DNA from: a virus
Virus record (IMG/VR): IMGVR_UViG_3300048691_000182
Coordinates: 32,280 to 96,279 of that record
Length of the DNA stretch: 64,000 nucleotides
Strand: one strand, 5' to 3'
Positions 1,050-60,107 of this stretch are shown one piece after another. The translations under genes and the position numbers were made by a program. Each line of letters begins with the position of its first letter. Within the stretch, counting starts at the first letter, position 1. The notes under the pieces are model-generated. The model was given only the letters and a program-made list of their open reading frames with translations. It ran no database searches and was not told where the DNA came from.

Positions 1050-3125
1050 TTACCTTCTAGTACCTGCAAATAAACCTTCTAACATCCCAACGGGAGTATC
1101 TTCTTTTACCCATAATGCCCATGCAGCTGGAGAAGTAAAAGCTTGTCCTGACCGTAGCTTTCTAGCAGCGTTTAAACGCAACTTAGGAATTGTGTGAAAT
1201 TGCTGGTCTAACGATAGCGAACTAAGAGTATTCATGTAGTCCGAGAATACTGTTTCTTCATCAAATACACCGTCCTCGTGTCCAAAGAATCCTCTAGATA
1301 TTTGCATATGCATTACTGAAGACATATCTACGACAGTAAAACTCACATCAATACCCATAGCCTGGTTACTACTATTAAAACCTAGATTGGTGGTTCCTCT
1401 AGTAATACTCAACGAGTCTATCATACCTAATCTAGTCTGGTGTCTACCGTGGTCGTATAGCTCACAAATAAAAGGACTAGTGTAAGACTGCTTACCAGTA
1501 GATAATGGAAGAGCAGCAGCCAACAACATACTGAGCGGTATGTATAAATTCTGCATCTGAGAAATAACATTACCGTAAGGTGATCTTAGCTTAATAGTGT
1601 ACGATGATCTTGGTAAACTAGCAGACGAGCTCTCCCAATGCTTAGGAATATCTACAAAACCGCCGCCAGCTAATTGAAGTAAACCAGACAAACCAAAAGT
1701 ATCAGCTGTGCCAGCAATAATACCTTTTGCCGTATTAACACCCATGTCAATAACAGATCCTATTCCGCCGATATTACCGCCACCCGCAAAAGAAAAGTTA
1801 ACAGATCTACCAGAGCTAGCCATTCCGTTCATTTTACCTTGAATATCCGAATCTCTAACTGAATTACTAAAACTTTCCTGCACTGAGCCTGTGTACTCAA
1901 CTTCAAAAGTTGCAAAAGCAGCACCATCATCCAATTCAGCTTTCAAGTCAGCCCAAAAATTCTTCAACCAACTTCTATTTCTGGTTGGATCATTTTGCTG
2001 CACACCTGGGGTTTCAGGTGGCGCTACGTAATCTGGATCAATTTTAATGTCTTGTTCTGAGCTAAGATCAGCTTTCTTTGAATCAGGGTCTGGCATGGTT
2101 GCTTCAGACTTTAACCAGCTCTGAAGTCTATCGTACCAGCCACGATTCATAGAACTATCGCTTAACATTTCTTGTCCAGCTTTCTGTACCACGCCAGCAA
2201 AATCTGTACTAGAAGAATTATTAAACTGTTCCCACAATTCATTATCGGCTGCAATCTTAAACCTCTGAGCCCTATTAGCAACTGCATAAACATCAATACC
2301 GCCATCTTTAGAAAAGACTTCCGGCATTAAATCATGAAGTTGTTCTAAGAACTCTCTGTCTGCTAAGTATGCTGTGTCAATTTTTTGATCAGTGGGGTCG
2401 TCTGATTTTAAAAGAGAAGGTATTAGACCACGCCCAACAGCAATTTTATTTACAATAGAATTTACAGCAGACCAATAACTCAGCATTGTTGGCTTAAGAT
2501 AATAGTATTTACTAGTCTGTTTCCCAAAGAAAAAACTAGCTACGTGCCCAAGTGCATTTACAGCAGCAAGTTGCCAAACAGCAACACTTGCCACTAAAGA
2601 AATAACTCTACCAACAGCATAGCCTAATTTTTCTGATAAAGTAGTTCTACCGCTTCTTGATAATGCTGCTGCCTTACTGTTGTAATAACCTGTAAAGAAT
2701 TGTGTAAGACTGTTGTATTGCGGGACACCAAACCGCATATGAATTTGTTGCTTATTTTTATCAATAGCTTCATGGTAATATCTACCCATACCGTTCTTAC
2801 CAGTAATGGAGCCTGGCGTAACAAGCTCTCTACCCGGTAATCTACCCATAGATCTTAAGTCCGCATATCTGGTAAACTGTGGTCTAGAATTAACAGCGTA
2901 TGTACCGCCAAGTGAGGTATCTTGAAAACTCAGGCTCACAGTGGAAAAAGTTCTATTGAGCACGTCTACACTTTCTAAATCTCCTGCTGAAACAAAAAAA
3001 GCTTGTTTAGCCCATGCTGCATCTAATACGGTGGATTGTTGGTCAGTAGCAAAAATGTTTTGTTGTTCTATTGTTGGTTCAGCAACGTTACTATCGCCCG
3101 TAGCAGATTCTTTATAAGTGCTCAT
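1050..3125 (-). CDS. Putative virion/baseplate structural protein
   Basis: 691 residues. No family recognised with certainty. A hydrophobic stretch lies near residues 165-200, the middle (about 440-475) is Gly/Ser-rich, and the C-terminal 200 residues have the mixed beta character seen in tail and baseplate proteins. It lies directly downstream of the 2418-residue tail hydrolase gene on the same strand, separated by a hairpin and a run of T/A, so the two are probably expressed together as late structural genes. Virion role is inferred from position and composition. Confidence 0.6.
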   Translation of the reverse strand: MSTYKESATGDSNVAEPTIEQQNIFATDQQSTVLDAAWAKQAFFVSAGDLESVDVLNRTFSTVSLSFQDTSLGGTYAVNSRPQFTRYADLRSMGRLPGRELVTPGSITGKNGMGRYYHEAIDKNKQQIHMRFGVPQYNSLTQFFTGYYNSKAAALSRSGRTTLSEKLGYAVGRVISLVASVAVWQLAAVNALGHVASFFFGKQTSKYYYLKPTMLSYWSAVNSIVNKIAVGRGLIPSLLKSDDPTDQKIDTAYLADREFLEQLHDLMPEVFSKDGGIDVYAVANRAQRFKIAADNELWEQFNNSSSTDFAGVVQKAGQEMLSDSSMNRGWYDRLQSWLKSEATMPDPDSKKADLSSEQDIKIDPDYVAPPETPGVQQNDPTRNRSWLKNFWADLKAELDDGAAFATFEVEYTGSVQESFSNSVRDSDIQGKMNGMASSGRSVNFSFAGGGNIGGIGSVIDMGVNTAKGIIAGTADTFGLSGLLQLAGGGFVDIPKHWESSSASLPRSSYTIKLRSPYGNVISQMQNLYIPLSMLLAAALPLSTGKQSYTSPFICELYDHGRHQTRLGMIDSLSITRGTTNLGFNSSNQAMGIDVSFTVVDMSSVMHMQISRGFFGHEDGVFDEETVFSDYMNTLSSLSLDQQFHTIPKLRLNAARKLRSGQAFTSPAAWALWVKEDTPVGMLEGLFAGTRR

Positions 3126-3157
3126 AATTTCTTTTCTATATTTTTTTTTTACAACAT

Positions 3158-3191
3158 ACTCAGAGTAAACCGTGAAAGGTTTACTCTGAGT
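3158..3191. terminator. Intergenic hairpin
   Basis: A 14-base inverted repeat (3158-3171 with 3178-3191) sits between the two minus-strand tail genes. It may end or weaken transcription between them; no clear U-tract follows on the minus strand. Confidence 0.4.
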
Positions 3192-3203
3192 GCTTTATGT
3201 TAT

Positions 3204-6200
3204 CTAAGTACGTGCCATTGACACTGGGACAGTTTTATTGGGTGTTCTTTGTGGTTGAGCACCCTGCACATTACTCGTATTCATATCATTATTACTAGGT
3301 GTGTTTTTCTCATCTACCTTCATTGCTTTAGGTTGACCAGAATTTTCTAATAATTTCTGTAACACAGACAACATACTAGTCTGTACATCAAGAGATTTCT
3401 TCAAAGTAGTAGAAACATCACCAATAGCATTTGTCATATCCGCATTAGGATTAGACTGAACTTGTTTAGTGGTGGGTACATTAAATCCACCTACATCTGC
3501 TCTAGGGGTCAGAGCAGCACTAATATTTCGATCAGGCTGGCTAGAGCTAGGCGTATTAGTAGAACTACTTTGACTAGGCATCCCAGCTATAGTACTAGCT
3601 GTTGAATTAGGAGCTTTTAGTCCCAAACCAGAACTACCGGGAACACCCGGTTTAACACCTTCTAAACTAGAGCCTGGCTTCAACCCTATACCACCTACGG
3701 GATGGTATTCAACTGGGACACCGTGTTCTTTTACTTTATTCTTGACTCTACCGTCTAATAAAGAATAAACTTCAGAAATAGTCCTAGGTGTATTACCATT
3801 ATAAAAAATACCAGGATTGCTCTTTGCTGCGTCTGGTAATACGTTAGCAGCAACAGTGTTTGGATCAGCACTAAAGAATTTCTTGGCACCTGCTGCACCT
3901 AAGAAATGAGCCATGTATAAATCAGTAGCATTTAAGTCTGATTTACTACCGGACAAGGACTTCATATTTTCTTTAATGTACTCAGCAGTCATTAAAGCAT
4001 TAGCCCTTGAATCCATGGGTGAAGTACCAGGTGTGATGCCGTACTTACTGCCATTTTTCCTAATCATGTCTTCCCAAGTTTTGTCAACAAATTGACCCAA
4101 ACCTGAAGCTGTGCTAGACCCAGCTCTTGCATTAGGATTAAACCCGGATTCGATAGCTATAACAGGGGCTAAGATTTTAGGATCTACTCCAGTCATCTTT
4201 GAAGCACCAAGAATAACGTCTTTCTGACTCTCCCAGCCTTTTGCAGAACTACCCTCTCCAAGAAGAGAATACTTTCCGCCCGTCCCAGGAGTAGAAGATT
4301 TTAAAGCTTCCATCTTGTCGCCAGGGGCTGGTGCTCTAGACGAAGTAGACATCATTCCCTTACCTGATTCACTATCAGCACTGGATGTAATTCCTGCTAA
4401 TCCAGAAGGTCCATCAGATTTAACTTGTGGTTTATCAGGGATAGTTTTCTTAGTAATATCAATCATTGTTCCGGCGTTACCCGCTTTTGCACTTTTATCA
4501 ATAGCTGTTAATACTTTTGAATTATCAGTGATTGCCGGTGACTCTGCTTTAGCAACAGCGCTTGGTGTTACATTCATGTCCAGTAGTTTCTTGGCTAATA
4601 CTGGGTCTCTTGTAGCTAGTTTACTACCAGCAACAGTACCTAGACCGCCACCACCTTTGCCTAAAGAAGCCTGAATAGCTTTTGTGGCTGCTTGAGGATT
4701 TTGTTTAAATCCTTGAATATCAGTTTGAATACCAGCAGGCTCCATATGCCACTTTTCACCCCCAACAGGTCTGGTAAAACCATACTTACGCATTAGGCCT
4801 AGCTTTTCCATTTCATCAAGAGTAGCTGAATTTATATCCACAGCTAAACCAGACTCATGCATACTAGTACCAGGTTTAGCCGCCTTACTTGAGTCAGCGG
4901 CATACAGTTGTTGTTGCTGAGCAAAAGTTCTAAAACCATCGTTGATATAAACAGTCTTACCTGTCAGTTTACCAAACTCTTCAATCATACCGTTTAAGTT
5001 AGCTTTAAAGGCAGGATTTAAGTTATCAATATTAACACCTGGTTTTAATTTTGTAAACTGAGAAGCATTTCTACCATCAGAAATAGCACCTCCAGCTAAA
5101 ACTAATCCATTAGGTGCCGCGCCACTAGTAGTATCAAAACCACCACTTCCTTTAGCACCTAGAGAACTAGACTCTGAATCAGGACCTCCTTGGGGTTTTC
5201 CTGATTCATAAGCGGAAGGATTATTGCCTCTTGCTCTTGGAGATGTATCGGTTGAAGGTTTAACCTTACCTGCATCACTAGTCTGAGGGGTTAGTTTTTT
5301 CTTTATGGCTTCAGCTGCTAATTCATTCTTAGCATCTTCTTGTAATGATTCTAATATATCTTTTAAAATACTAGAATTACTTCCTAAGCTATAACCATCC
5401 CAAGGTGAACTAGTAACACCCCATATTCCAGGTAAAGAAACTAGCTGATTTACAATGGTTAATTCTTGACTAGGTTTTAGTTGAGGTAGTTTACCTTTGA
5501 CTAATTCGGACCCAGACATTTGTTTTACTAAACCTAGATAAGTTAAGTAAACAGGTAAGAATCTTTTCTGAAACCAATTAATCCAATCTTCACCCTTATC
5601 AGTGTTTCTAGAAACCCCAAAAACACCACCTATGGAGTCTATAATTATATTTGCATCAGCCTTGAGACTTGCTTTTCCATCAGCTCCATAAATACTGTTA
5701 TCAGTAATTAGATCTTCTAATTGGCGAAGACAGTTTACTTTCATGGTCTCCATTTTGTGTAAACCATATGCTCTAAATCTAGCGCCCTCTAAAGCCTCGA
5801 TGGTGCCTGCTTTTCTATATCTTGGTGCAGAGCCCTTGGCTGATATATTGCGGGCCTCTGAGGCTGCTGTAGCTGCATCTCCTAAGCCATCAGCTTTGGT
5901 ATTCTTAGCAGTAGAGTTAGTATTTTTCTGATTTAGTTTATTTACTACATCTTCACCTAATTGTGCAGCGGTTGCCACACCTAAACGGGTAGAATCTTTC
6001 TTTTGTTTTAGATCTCTATCTGCGGCAGCTTTAGCTACTTTGAAAGCAGCTTCAACATCAGCACCGTTAGTTACTTTAACATCCGAAGTAATGTCAGGCC
6101 TATACTCAGAATCGTAAGGACCTTCAGGAAAATGAACTAATTCTAAATATTTAACTTTAATGGCTGGTTTAAAATCATCAACCTCAGCTAAAGGTGTTTT

Positions 6201-46638: not shown

Positions 46639-48555
46639 ATGATTGAGTCGAAAGATTTTGCGAACACAGGCAACCAAACCGCTACTCAGGCCAACGTTGC
46701 TGAACAGCAACCAGTTAACTATGCACAGCAAAAGCCTGTTGCAGCAAATCCCCATGACGGTAAACTCAAGCCTTGGACTTTCCAAGACCGTAGTCCTTTT
46801 GGTTCGGCGCCAATTGCACGTGGCGTTGGTAGCGAGTACATTGTTAAGCTGGCAGGTATCCTGGGCGAGAAGTTCAAAGCAGCTCCAGCTACTTTCAAAT
46901 ACAATCTGATCAGCATTGATCGCTTGATTGATTCGCAGATTTGGTTCAGTGCTTTGGTGTTCTGCATGGCAGATGCTAAGAACGACAAAGCTGTTGCTTT
47001 TCACACACTGATTCTGGAAGCAACCAACATTGCTATTGCTCCTTTGACAAAGCCTTCAGGCATGCCAAATGAGAACATTCCAGTCGAAGTGTTTCGTCCT
47101 TCCAGCGATGCGTTTGACGCCGAACTGATGAAGTTGGTGAGCGCGCGTGTTCGTGATCAGTTCCCTGGTGCTAAACAGCTGTCTACTTTGGCCACTGTTG
47201 TTCCTCGTGATTTCAACATGGTTGATCAAAACCTGATCCATCAGTTGGCTGTTCAAATCTCTTTGGCCAATACCACTGAGCTGTCCATCAACGCCCCTGA
47301 TTTCACCGACATTAATCTGTCTAACATGGTTAATGACTCTCGCTTGACAGTTACCCCCACGTATACCAAGGGTGTAACGATTGATGCAGTTGATCACCCA
47401 ATCCGTTCCGATATCACGATTAACTTCAGTGCTAAAAAGAATGGCACTGGTAATGGTAACAACGAAACATCAGTCAACGTTGGCGACAACGTGGCGCAGA
47501 TTAGTCAACTGACTGGTTTCATCGATTTCATGTACTCCCCAGTACTGCCGCCTGACGTTACTAACTTTGGCGCCTACCAGCACCAACTGAAGCCTGGCGT
47601 TATCCCAACACAGACTTACGCGGCTCGTCTGGTTATTACCAACCTGGAAAACTACTTTGCAACAACTTTGCCCGGTAACCTGCTGTCGCTGACGACCGCG
47701 TTGGCAGCAAGTGAAAATGGTAACTGGATGCAAACGTTCTTGCCTAGTAACCGTTTGGTTGGTGGTAAGCCTTTCATGATGCATGATGTTGGTGGTTTGG
47801 GTATCGAAACCATCGGTAACGGTAAGCGTATTAATACCGATGGTGATGCCTTCCGTCCTGAGGACATGGGTAAGTTGATCGGTATGACTGTGCGTGAAGG
47901 TCTGACGCTGAGTCTGGATGTTCCTGATTGCGCGCCAAACACCTGGGGTTTGAAAGTATTCTCGGCAGCTGCTTCTGCACGTGAAGGTGAATTCACCCCA
48001 GCAATGGCAGCAATTTGCAATGCAGCAAACTACCTGACTAATGGTGCTTTCGATCGTAATTTCAACAAGAACTCACCAATGTTTGTTGATAAGGGTAACC
48101 GTGTGCATTTGGGTTACTACACCACCAAAGAAGGTGAGAAGCGTGACATCCGTGATTACGATTACTTGAGCGTAGCTAACATCACAGGCGAAGCTGATCC
48201 ACGCGACATCCGTCAGTGGTCGGATACGTTTGCACAAGTTAACCTACCTTTGGTTCCTCGTTTGGCTGCTCGTAAGCGCATCATCTCTAACCTGCAACCT
48301 AATGCAGTGTTCACTGGTTACGGCCACCGTGTTACGTTCAGTTCGCAGTTTATGACTGCTCTGGCCATCTCTTGCCGTGAAGCAGGTTTTGCACCAGTTC
48401 TGAGCACGCAATACGGTACTGCCGGTATGAACAACCAACGTGGCGTTAATAGCTTTGTTGGCGATGCCGCAATGGGTTCTAACAACGGTGTATTCCAATC
48501 TGCCAGCAATGGATGGAATGGTAGCAACACTTTCGGTTACGGTGGCCGTTGGTAA
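46639..48555 (+). CDS. chmA: Phage nuclear shell protein, chimallin (ChmA, phiKZ gp54-like)
   Basis: 638 residues, similar in size to known chimallins (about 600-630). Disordered Gln/Asn-rich N-terminus (1-40), large mixed alpha/beta body, and a Gly/Asn-rich C-terminal tail ending FGYGGRW, fitting the flexible tails that link chimallin tiles. The gene directly precedes the non-virion polymerase beta' N-terminal part, the same neighbour as phiKZ gp54-gp55. C/G-ending codons and its own promoter and terminator show very high expression. It would build the protein lattice around the replicating genome. The alternative, a capsid protein, fits the context less well. Confidence 0.8.
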   Translation: MIESKDFANTGNQTATQANVAEQQPVNYAQQKPVAANPHDGKLKPWTFQDRSPFGSAPIARGVGSEYIVKLAGILGEKFKAAPATFKYNLISIDRLIDSQIWFSALVFCMADAKNDKAVAFHTLILEATNIAIAPLTKPSGMPNENIPVEVFRPSSDAFDAELMKLVSARVRDQFPGAKQLSTLATVVPRDFNMVDQNLIHQLAVQISLANTTELSINAPDFTDINLSNMVNDSRLTVTPTYTKGVTIDAVDHPIRSDITINFSAKKNGTGNGNNETSVNVGDNVAQISQLTGFIDFMYSPVLPPDVTNFGAYQHQLKPGVIPTQTYAARLVITNLENYFATTLPGNLLSLTTALAASENGNWMQTFLPSNRLVGGKPFMMHDVGGLGIETIGNGKRINTDGDAFRPEDMGKLIGMTVREGLTLSLDVPDCAPNTWGLKVFSAAASAREGEFTPAMAAICNAANYLTNGAFDRNFNKNSPMFVDKGNRVHLGYYTTKEGEKRDIRDYDYLSVANITGEADPRDIRQWSDTFAQVNLPLVPRLAARKRIISNLQPNAVFTGYGHRVTFSSQFMTALAISCREAGFAPVLSTQYGTAGMNNQRGVNSFVGDAAMGSNNGVFQSASNGWNGSNTFGYGGRW

Positions 48556-48689: not shown

Positions 48690-50629
48690 ATGGCAATTAG
48701 TTTAGAGCTAGTAAATAACGATAAAGTTTTCTACGAGTTACCTAACCCACCTATTATTATCAATGATGTACTCAATACATCAGAAGAAGAAAGAGAAGCA
48801 TTACAAAAACTTATCTTTAGTAAGTACGGCTCAGAGCACCTAAGTAACTTGCCCTCGTGTGATTGTGATGAAGGTGTTGGTATTGTTGGTGAATTCAACA
48901 TCGGTGTCTATTGTCCTAATTGCAGAACCTGTGTCAAGCCACCCATTGACAAAGAAATCAATTCAATACTCTGGATGAGGTCGCCAATAGGGGTGCAGCG
49001 TCTTATTAATCCAATAGTCTGGACTATGATTAGTGAGCGTTTTACAATCTCTAAGTTTAATATCATTCAATGGTTATGCGATACTGGGTATTCAGTAGAT
49101 GCTAAAGTACCAAGTGAGATAGAACTCATCCAAGAAGCAGGCATAACAAGAGGTTACAATAATTTTGTAACTAACTTCGACGCTATTATGGGTTTTCTTT
49201 TTAGTATAAAGAAATTGTCTTTAAAAGTAAAAGGACCTATTGACCATCTTCAGGTATTACTAAAAACACATAGAGAATGTTTATTTAGTAAACATATTCC
49301 GCTACCCAATAAAGCTCTTCTAATTATTGAAGAGATTAATGTAGGTACATATGTAGACCCTGTTGTTCCAGTAGCTATCAATGCTATCCAGACAATTGCC
49401 AGTATTGATGCACCAGGTAATACTTTTAGCCTTCGTGTAAAAGAAAACAGGACTGTTAAATCATTAGCTACCTTGGCTGAGTTTAACGAAATGTATGCAC
49501 ATGTGGGTCTAGGTGGTAAACCAGGTATTCTTCGAAGAAACGTATTTGGTACTAGTAATAACTTTAGTTTCCGTACAGTTATTACTTCAATTACAGAACC
49601 CCATAAAGAAACAGATATACACATACCTTGGCCTGTAGCAATTACTGTATTTAATTACCACCTGATTAACCATTTAAAGAAAATGGGATTCACTCTAAAT
49701 GAATCTATTGGGTATTTGAATAAACATGCTTACAAATACGATCCTTTGATTGATAGTATTTTTGACAAGTTTTTGAATGCAGGTAAAGGTAATGGAATTC
49801 CTCTTACACTTGGTCGTAATCCAAGTCTAGGTAAGTCTAGTCTTCTTAGTGTATTTATTACTAAGATTATCAAAGACCCTAAAATAGTAGCTACTAAAAT
49901 TAGTATACTAATTACAGCCCATCTTAATGCTGATAGAAACTTAAGTAGTATTTAAGTATTAAGTATGTAAAATGAGGAGAAACATTTTATGTACAAAATT
50001 TAATAGAACATAAAACTAAAAAAAAAACGTTTTAGAGTTCGCTATTTAAGATAAGTCCTTTTATTTAGTAATAAATAAAAAGTATTCTTTTGAATTGCTG
50101 GAATAACTTGTTAGATCAGTAAACTACAATAATCCTGAAAAGAGATTATGAATGTTTAAAAATTACTGAGTAGAGTCAATCAGCAGCTAAGACCCTAAGC
50201 TCGTGAGAGTATGGGTAAAGTTCAACGACTATCCCGTAGCTGGGAGTAGGGGTTAGCAACTCCGAAGTGGAAGACTACCTAACTAGCAATAGAAGGTAGA
50301 AGATATAGTCTGTTCCTCACTGGAGACGTGAGGCGGGTGGAATACACCGGGTGTTTTTAAGAGTAGCCACTGGCGAGCGACTAACACTGGACAAAAAGTT
50401 TGACGGCGACGAATGCAACTTCTGTTTATTCTTGGACGAAGATCTTGCTAAAGAGTTTGAAAGTTTGAAACCACACAAAAGTGTTTTCAGTCTTAATTCT
50501 CCAAGACAGGTATCTGGAAATTTGTCCATGCCTAAGCCAGTGGTATCTAGTATTGCTGAGCTCATGAGCTCAAAAGAAATACCTGATCCTGCTAAGTTAG
50601 AGAAAATGAAGAGTTTGTATGTAGACTAA
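48690..50629 (+). CDS. Non-virion RNA polymerase beta' N-terminal part, interrupted by a group I intron
   Basis: Exons 48690-49934 and 50399-50629 join to 491 residues. C57, C59, C75 and C78 form a zinc-ribbon-like site (CDC...CPNC). Joining the exons restores NAD|FDGD (residues 413-419), the absolutely conserved magnesium-binding motif of beta', preceded by GRNPSLGKSS, equivalent to NRAPTLHR. The C-terminal beta' must lie elsewhere, as in phiKZ gp55/gp74. It is the transcription enzyme made after infection, used inside the phage nucleus. GAAAG ribosome site. Read without splicing, exon 1 meets a stop 21 bases into the intron. Confidence 0.88.
49935..50398 (+). ncRNA. Group I self-splicing intron without endonuclease gene (464 nt)
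   Basis: The 5' exon ends in T (49934) and the intron ends in G (50398), as group I introns require. The core has TTCAACGACTA with GACTA at 50227-50231 pairing to TAGTC at 50306-50310 inside AAGATATAGTC (P7), and an AATCAGCAGC element near 50169. About 230 bases of AT-rich sequence precede the core. No open frame of endonuclease size. Exact P1 pairing was not resolved. Confidence 0.85.
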
Positions 50630-59504: not shown

Positions 59505-59544
59505 CCAATTAGATAATAAATTTATTTTGTGAGTAGGTTTAGGT

Positions 59545-59848
59545 GGCCCTGTGATGGAATAGGTAGACATAAATTAGTTGTGTCCTATAGTAGAAATATT
59601 GTAGAAAAATGGTGTAAATTCAGGGAAAGCTTAACATGTAATGATGATGCCAATCCTGAGCGAAACTTTCGCAGTAATGTGAGATGACGTGCAGAGACTA
59701 TAATCACCTATCTTAACAAGTAAAGCTGAAGATAAAGGGATAGTCCACGTAACAACAGTAATAATACTGATAGTGAAAACTATAGTTATTTGAACAGACT
59801 TAAAATCTGTCGCCGAAAGGCATCCCGATTCGAGTTCGGGCAGGGCCA
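59545..59848 (+). tRNA. tRNA-Leu (TAA), interrupted by a group I intron
   Basis: Exons 59545-59570 and 59793-59848. Acceptor GGCCCTG/CAGGGCC, D-stem ATG/CAT, anticodon stem ACAGA/TCTGT with TAA at 59801-59803, class II variable arm, T-arm CCCGA/TCGGG. CCA is not encoded (CCT follows), unlike the other tRNAs. The intron falls between positions 25 and 26, at the end of the D-stem, not in the anticodon loop. Leader and trailer extend the acceptor to 18 perfect pairs (59534-59551 with 59841-59858). Confidence 0.88.
59571..59792 (+). ncRNA. Group I (IC3-like) intron in tRNA-Leu
   Basis: 222 nt. TCAGG (59620-59624) pairs with CCTGA within GCCAATCCTGAGC, and GCAGAGACTA (59691-59700) pairs through GACTA with TAGTC (59741-59745) in AAAGGGATAGTCC; these match cyanobacterial tRNA-Leu intron core words. 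P1: exon GACAT with intron GTGTC (59580-59584), giving the required U-G at the splice site. P10: exon AAC with GTT at 59577-59579. The intron ends in G (59792). No ORF. Confidence 0.88.
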
Positions 59849-59882
59849 CCTAAACCTATTTAAATATAAATTTATTATTGAA

Positions 59883-60107
59883 AGAACACTAAGAGATAAA
59901 GTAGATGAATGGCGGAATTGGTATACGCGTGGCCAGGACTTCGGTCTGAAGCTGCTAGACTGTGAACACCTAAAGCGGGATATGTGACTTCGAAGAAGAG
60001 CTATCGACACAGTCGGCCTATCATTGGGTCCGGTCTTAGACCAAGTGTGAAGGTTCGAATCCTTCTTCAGAAATCAATGATCTAGCTACTTTATCTCTTA
60101 GTGTTCT
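59883..60107 (+). ncRNA. tRNA-like structured RNA inside a 22-bp inverted repeat
   Basis: Perfect arms 59883-59904 and 60086-60107 enclose ~180 bases. A D-arm TGGCGGAATTGGTATACGCG (59910-59929) and a T-arm GAAGG-TTCGAAT-CCTTC (60049-60065) are clear, as in tRNA-Leu, but no normal anticodon arm follows. Between them lie helices GACTGTG/CACAGTC (59957-59963 with 60007-60013), GGCC/GGCC, and a nine-pair hairpin (60022-60047) with one mismatch. The acceptor is degenerate beyond four pairs. It may be a tRNA with another insertion, a decayed tRNA, or a new RNA. Confidence 0.6.

Follow-up and report, generated by a model that had tools for sequence, protein, structure and literature searches.

The gene for the non-virion RNA polymerase (nvRNAP) beta' N-terminal subunit in this DNA of a nucleus-forming jumbo phage is very probably interrupted, between the GAT codon that closes NAD and the TTT codon that opens FDGD, by a group I ribozyme that is predicted to splice, to have arrived by homing, and to have later lost an HNH gene. 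The DNA examined (the window) is a 64,000-nt stretch of IMGVR_UViG_3300048691_000182, a record of 96,279 bases that is itself a fragment; the genome of the phage is probably larger than this 96-kb record. The intron core, its exact junction, the homology on both sides of it, and the occupation of the same site with and without an HNH gene were computed. That a group I intron splits the NAD/FDGD motif (a slash marks an insertion point or junction) of the phage-nucleus polymerase was the original prediction, and it is borne out by a match to the Rfam model RF00028 and by the full-length homology of the joined protein.

The host gene and the exon junction

The open reading frame at 48690-49955 in the ORF list reads ...HLNAD/RNLSSI and stops 21 nt beyond the junction. 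Removal of 49935-50398 restores NAD/FDGD and yields one 491-aa protein without internal stops, containing ...TAHLNADFDGDECNF.... In an automatic scan of downstream positions, the sole acceptor that restores FDGD after a G was 50398/50399. The junction had originally been given as T49934/G50398, which is exact and restores the motif; however, these two positions are the last base of exon 1 and the last base of the intron (its terminal G), and the base that follows T49934 once the intron is removed is T50399.

The spliced product can be aligned from end to end with its counterpart in the intronless Burkholderia phage FLC9 (43% over 99%), matches PHROG 2987 over residues 1-474 (E 3e-141), and matches phiKZ gp55 in the solved non-virion RNA polymerase (PDB 7ogp; E 8e-77). 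Judged by this homology, together with the presence of NADFDGD, the product is a homologue of phiKZ gp55, the chimallivirus nvRNAP beta' N-terminal subunit. In phiKZ, the catalytic Mg is coordinated by the motif DFDGD (PMC8287921). The arrangement of the nuclear shell gene followed by the polymerase gene (Table 1) is also found in PDCC-1, D3, and MIZ-Pa99.

No second copy of the split polymerase gene was found in the 96-kb record. Dependence of the enzyme on splicing is therefore a well-founded prediction, since the gene is present once and the unspliced product would lack the FDGD aspartates; the earlier claim that the enzyme depends on self-splicing stands to this extent, with the splicing itself being predicted. 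The two reading frames could instead encode separate subunits, as a further split of the polymerase gene that involves no splicing, given that the RNAPs of jumbo phages naturally consist of several separate polypeptides (PMC7598289) and that a GTG start is present at 50351 in the reading frame around exon 2. This has next to no probability, because the break would separate aspartates that have to sit together in the Mg-binding loop, because the inserted sequence is an entire group I ribozyme, and because the joined protein (PHIKZ055 plus PHIKZ056.1) is part of the solved phiKZ enzyme. Nor is the insert an intein, that is, an in-frame protein insert with splicing domains, as there are stops in every listed frame.

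Table 1. Features of the interrupted polymerase gene and its upstream neighbor (window coordinates).
Feature	Position	Strand	Remarks
Nuclear shell protein (ChmA) gene, directly upstream of polymerase gene	46639..48555	+	PHROG 4795, E 1.9e-67
Exon 1, nvRNAP beta' N-terminal subunit	48690..49934	+	Ends AAT GCT GAT (N-A-D)
Group I intron, 464 nt, without endonuclease gene	49935..50398	+	
P1 extension, 5' strand CUUAAGUAGU	49940..49949	+	Pairs with 50041-50050
Shine-Dalgarno-like GAGGAG, then ATG TAC AAA ATT TAA, P1 loop	49974..50003	+	
Rfam Intron_gpI match, catalytic core	50037..50333	+	RF00028, 70.7 bits
P1 extension, 3' strand GCUAUUUAAG	50041..50050	+	Pairs with 49940-49949
Internal guide sequence GUCC	50055..50058	+	Directly before P2
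P2 hairpin UUUUAUUUA/UAAAUAAAA	50059..50080	+	
P7 3' strand region AAGAUAUAGUC	50300..50310	+	
P9.2 hairpin before 3' splice site	50351..50387	+	Terminal G is 50398
Exon 2	50399..50629	+	Starts TTT GAC GGC GAC (F-D-G-D), ends at stop codon

Structure and predicted splicing of the intron

The insert contains the conserved P3-P8 catalytic core of group I introns. The RF00028 match (E 6.4e-16) covers the model in full (1-253), and its score compares with an Rfam gathering score of 50. The intron ends in G and joining of its exons restores the protein; the 5' splice site follows a U that forms a U.G pair with the P1 guide (GAU^/GUC). The helices were placed in the order P1 with its extension, P2, P3-P8, P9, P9.1, P9.2, and the terminal G50398, with the placement of P1 and the guide supported by comparison with introns at the same site in other phages. 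The exon-intron stretch as a whole folds 3.85 sd better than dinucleotide shuffles.

In the window intron, the end of exon 1 (GAU) pairs with the guide GUC (50055-50057) through U.G, A-U, and G-C, an unbroken run of only three pairs. In the neighboring site-E introns, P1 has an unbroken stretch of 6 bp or more whose sequence tracks the exon codon (GAC/GCYGUC, GAT/GCCAUC). This short guide-exon helix implies that splicing may be slow or need help. Two longer pairings were considered and rejected. GUUAGCA (about 50252-50258, in the P7.1/P7.2 loop region) is complementary to exon UGCUGAU over 7 bp, but it is not part of P1 and is not conserved in Aeromonas phage PS1, whereas GUCC stands before P2 in all seven introns at this site. 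A 9-bp pairing between exon CUUAAUGCU and AGUAUUAAG, just inside the intron, is likewise not found in PS1.

Self-splicing in the cell, like the direction of gain and loss and present mobility, is something that we infer. In the pre-mRNA, the exon end GAU would pair with the guide GUC beneath the extension helix; by the standard group I mechanism, guanosine would attack after U49934, and the freed exon would then attack after G50398 to give an uninterrupted message.

A second group I intron (59571-59792; Rfam 66.1 bits) in the window splits a tRNA-Leu(UAA) gene (59542-59850) upstream of the anticodon arm rather than in the anticodon loop, and ARAGORN calls this tRNA only once the 222-nt intron is removed. 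At 59912-60085, tRNA-like halves GGCGGAATTGGTATACGCG ... GGTTCGAATCCTTC lie about 100 nt apart and receive no ARAGORN call; they may represent a tRNA that is degraded or interrupted.

Introns at the same nucleotide in related phages

Introns at the same nucleotide, with both junctions read, are present in the Aeromonas phages PS1, AVP1, and CF8, in Photobacterium phage PDCC-1, and in the metagenomic contigs L055 and L067 (the latter IMGVR_UViG_3300046328_000321), which together with the window give the seven introns compared. A P1-extension helix that differs in sequence while its pairing is kept is present in the window and in five of the six relatives; in L067, the exception, the P1 loop is merely CAAAAG. 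A helix equally long arose in 0-16 of 5000 shuffles for five of the introns and in 59 of 5000 for the window. The intron end GGACA(A/T)AA(A/G)G is common to the window and five of the others. The same site is empty, and NADFDGD continuous, in FLC9, SURPRISE13, L023, and L057-L060, so that it is occupied in some relatives and free in others, as in the case of a mobile intron. An HNH ORF, which starts just after the 5' splice site, occupies the P1 loop of the L055 and AVP1 introns. The same-site intron of PS1, whose core is almost the same as in AVP1, has no HNH gene. A tree of 23 intron cores had low support and did not recover a single clade of same-site introns, which leaves room for separate arrivals. 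A search for related loci with the window protein found no relative, and an eight-phage alignment was too diverged to serve as a basis for searching.

This distribution also bears on whether splicing is regulated and controls late transcription like a switch, with the intron retained for this role. With the intron in the catalytic motif, the enzyme could be active only after splicing, and the exon-guide helix is weak, as might suit such control. Among relatives, however, the intron is sporadic and many lack one entirely, which a mobile element fits better than a conserved switch; a regulatory role is accordingly rated as very improbable. The window intron would persist because nothing short of its exact deletion gives back a working enzyme.

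Endonuclease and mobility

As originally claimed, the window intron encodes no homing endonuclease: the stop-to-stop stretches listed are all shorter than 40 codons and have no HNH similarity. Two same-site relatives (AVP1 and L055) still have an HNH gene in their P1 loops, which makes loss of the endonuclease the simplest and most likely reading. Endonuclease-driven homing most likely brought the intron to the NAD/FDGD site, and the HNH gene would later have been lost from the P1 loop. By analogy with the P1-loop HNH genes of L055 and AVP1, GAGGAG...ATGTACAAAATTTAA at 49974-50003 may be a relic of the lost endonuclease start. This is suggestive only, as the loop is short and AT-rich and, apart from the SD-ATG pattern, has no recognizable HNH codons.

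The intron had been described as immobile or mobilized in trans, which omits the likelier loss of a P1-loop HNH gene but is right in allowing for help in trans, as the record is a fragment and an endonuclease may be encoded elsewhere in the genome. A free-standing HNH endonuclease would then cut the intronless NAD/FDGD, and the intron would be mobile by collaborative (trans) homing. Endonuclease-less introns are moved in trans in phage T4 mobE/nrdB (PMC2988022), and HNH genes are common in introns of this polymerase gene in related phages. However, a search of the 96-kb record for such an enzyme gave no match to the models HNH_3 and HNH (both Pfam), GIY-YIG, NUMOD4, or LAGLIDADG_1, and tblastn with nine HNH proteins from related introns gave no real match in it. 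The sole HNH-query match, PhiPA3 gp133 (E 3e-6), is the intron core itself read through stops, the annotated gp133 ORF running over a ribozyme. A seemingly free-standing HNH gene in PS1 (ORF 3017-3808) also sits inside a second intron. Homing in trans is thus an unlikely, though still appreciable, alternative to simple loss of the endonuclease.

Intron insertion across the NADFDGD motif

Sequence comparison shows that the window is no exceptional case: introns within or next to the motif are present in phiKZ and many relatives. Across related phages, introns lie at almost every codon of this active-site motif, with seven positions occupied, in different phages, within the 21-nt NADFDGD code of the nvRNAP beta' N-terminal subunit. 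These are N/AD (phiKZ, T2P, and L061), NA/D (MIZ-Pa99; NG/D in EC001), NAD/F (the window, PS1, AVP1, CF8, PDCC-1, L055, and L067, with L066 assigned from its 3' junction alone), within the F codon (Goslar), NADFD/G (Yong XC31), NADFDG/D (SNUABM_54, PS1, Totoro, Aphrodite1, D3, L067, and PBS1, the last with an inferred intron), and directly after NADFDGD (phiLBG22 and L066). The survey is a sample rather than a census, and many records are near-duplicates. Erwinia phage Caitlin seemed to be interrupted because of an alignment end, but is intronless. Two related marine virus contigs, L057 with the motif intact and L061 with a 1.7-kb HNH-bearing intron at N/AD, are a candidate pair for recent gain or loss.

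Several of these genes carry more than one intron. In PS1 (L011, 817-4032), two group I introns flank a 9-nt micro-exon, TTC GAC GGT (F-D-G). In L067 (1552-4385), one nvRNAP beta' gene holds four group I introns, all of which exceed the Rfam gathering score, with the micro-exons CCAAATGCTGAT and TTTGATGGT of 12 nt (PNAD) and 9 nt (FDG); removal of all four gives a protein without stops that has PNADFDGD. Goslar (L003, 3001-6289) apparently has two introns and a 13-nt micro-exon that codes for the catalytic DGDA; only the first intron is annotated, and the second, which Rfam does not detect, is presumed. The chances are about even that the NADFDGD code is a saturated hot spot in which introns accumulate, such that the aspartates come to lie on 9-13-nt micro-exons joined by two successive self-splicing reactions. 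The hot spot could reflect HNH endonucleases competing for one sequence that the phages cannot change. In the literature accessible without subscription on jumbo-phage polymerase introns, or on micro-exons between phage group I introns, the pattern was not found described.

Recurrent invasion of one motif at seven positions offers a natural experiment on how homing elements choose their sites, and the 9-nt micro-exons are a demanding case of how adjacent group I ribozymes avoid exon skipping. Annotation pipelines fragment this essential gene and can miss its catalytic motif.

Comparison with known systems

The window intron belongs to a kind that is already known, since group I introns are known to favor conserved sites (PMC2814812), active-site intron placement in genes of nucleus-forming phages has been discussed (PMC12908238), and an intron in the PhiPA3 virion RNA polymerase (vRNAP) has been described. 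The phiKZ gp55/gp56/gp56.1 locus is the same gene and subunit, likewise interrupted at the active-site loop by a group I intron (Rfam 75.6 bits), but that intron is inserted 6 nt upstream and encodes the HNH protein gp56 in its P1 loop. The introns of PS1, AVP1, CF8, and PDCC-1 share the insertion nucleotide, the GUCC guide, and the P1 extension with the window; they differ in that AVP1 retains its HNH gene, PS1 carries a further intron 9 nt downstream, and the overall sequences have diverged. PhiPA3 gp210 (vRNAP beta subunit) is also a chimallivirus RNA polymerase gene with a group I intron adjacent to conserved aspartates, but it belongs to another polymerase and subunit, and the intron encodes an HNH nickase whose action against phiKZ has been demonstrated (PMC11620839). 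The T4 td, nrdB, and sunY introns resemble the window intron as phage group I introns in essential enzyme genes, and introns that lack an endonuclease can be moved in trans (PMC2988022), while their host genes serve nucleotide metabolism.
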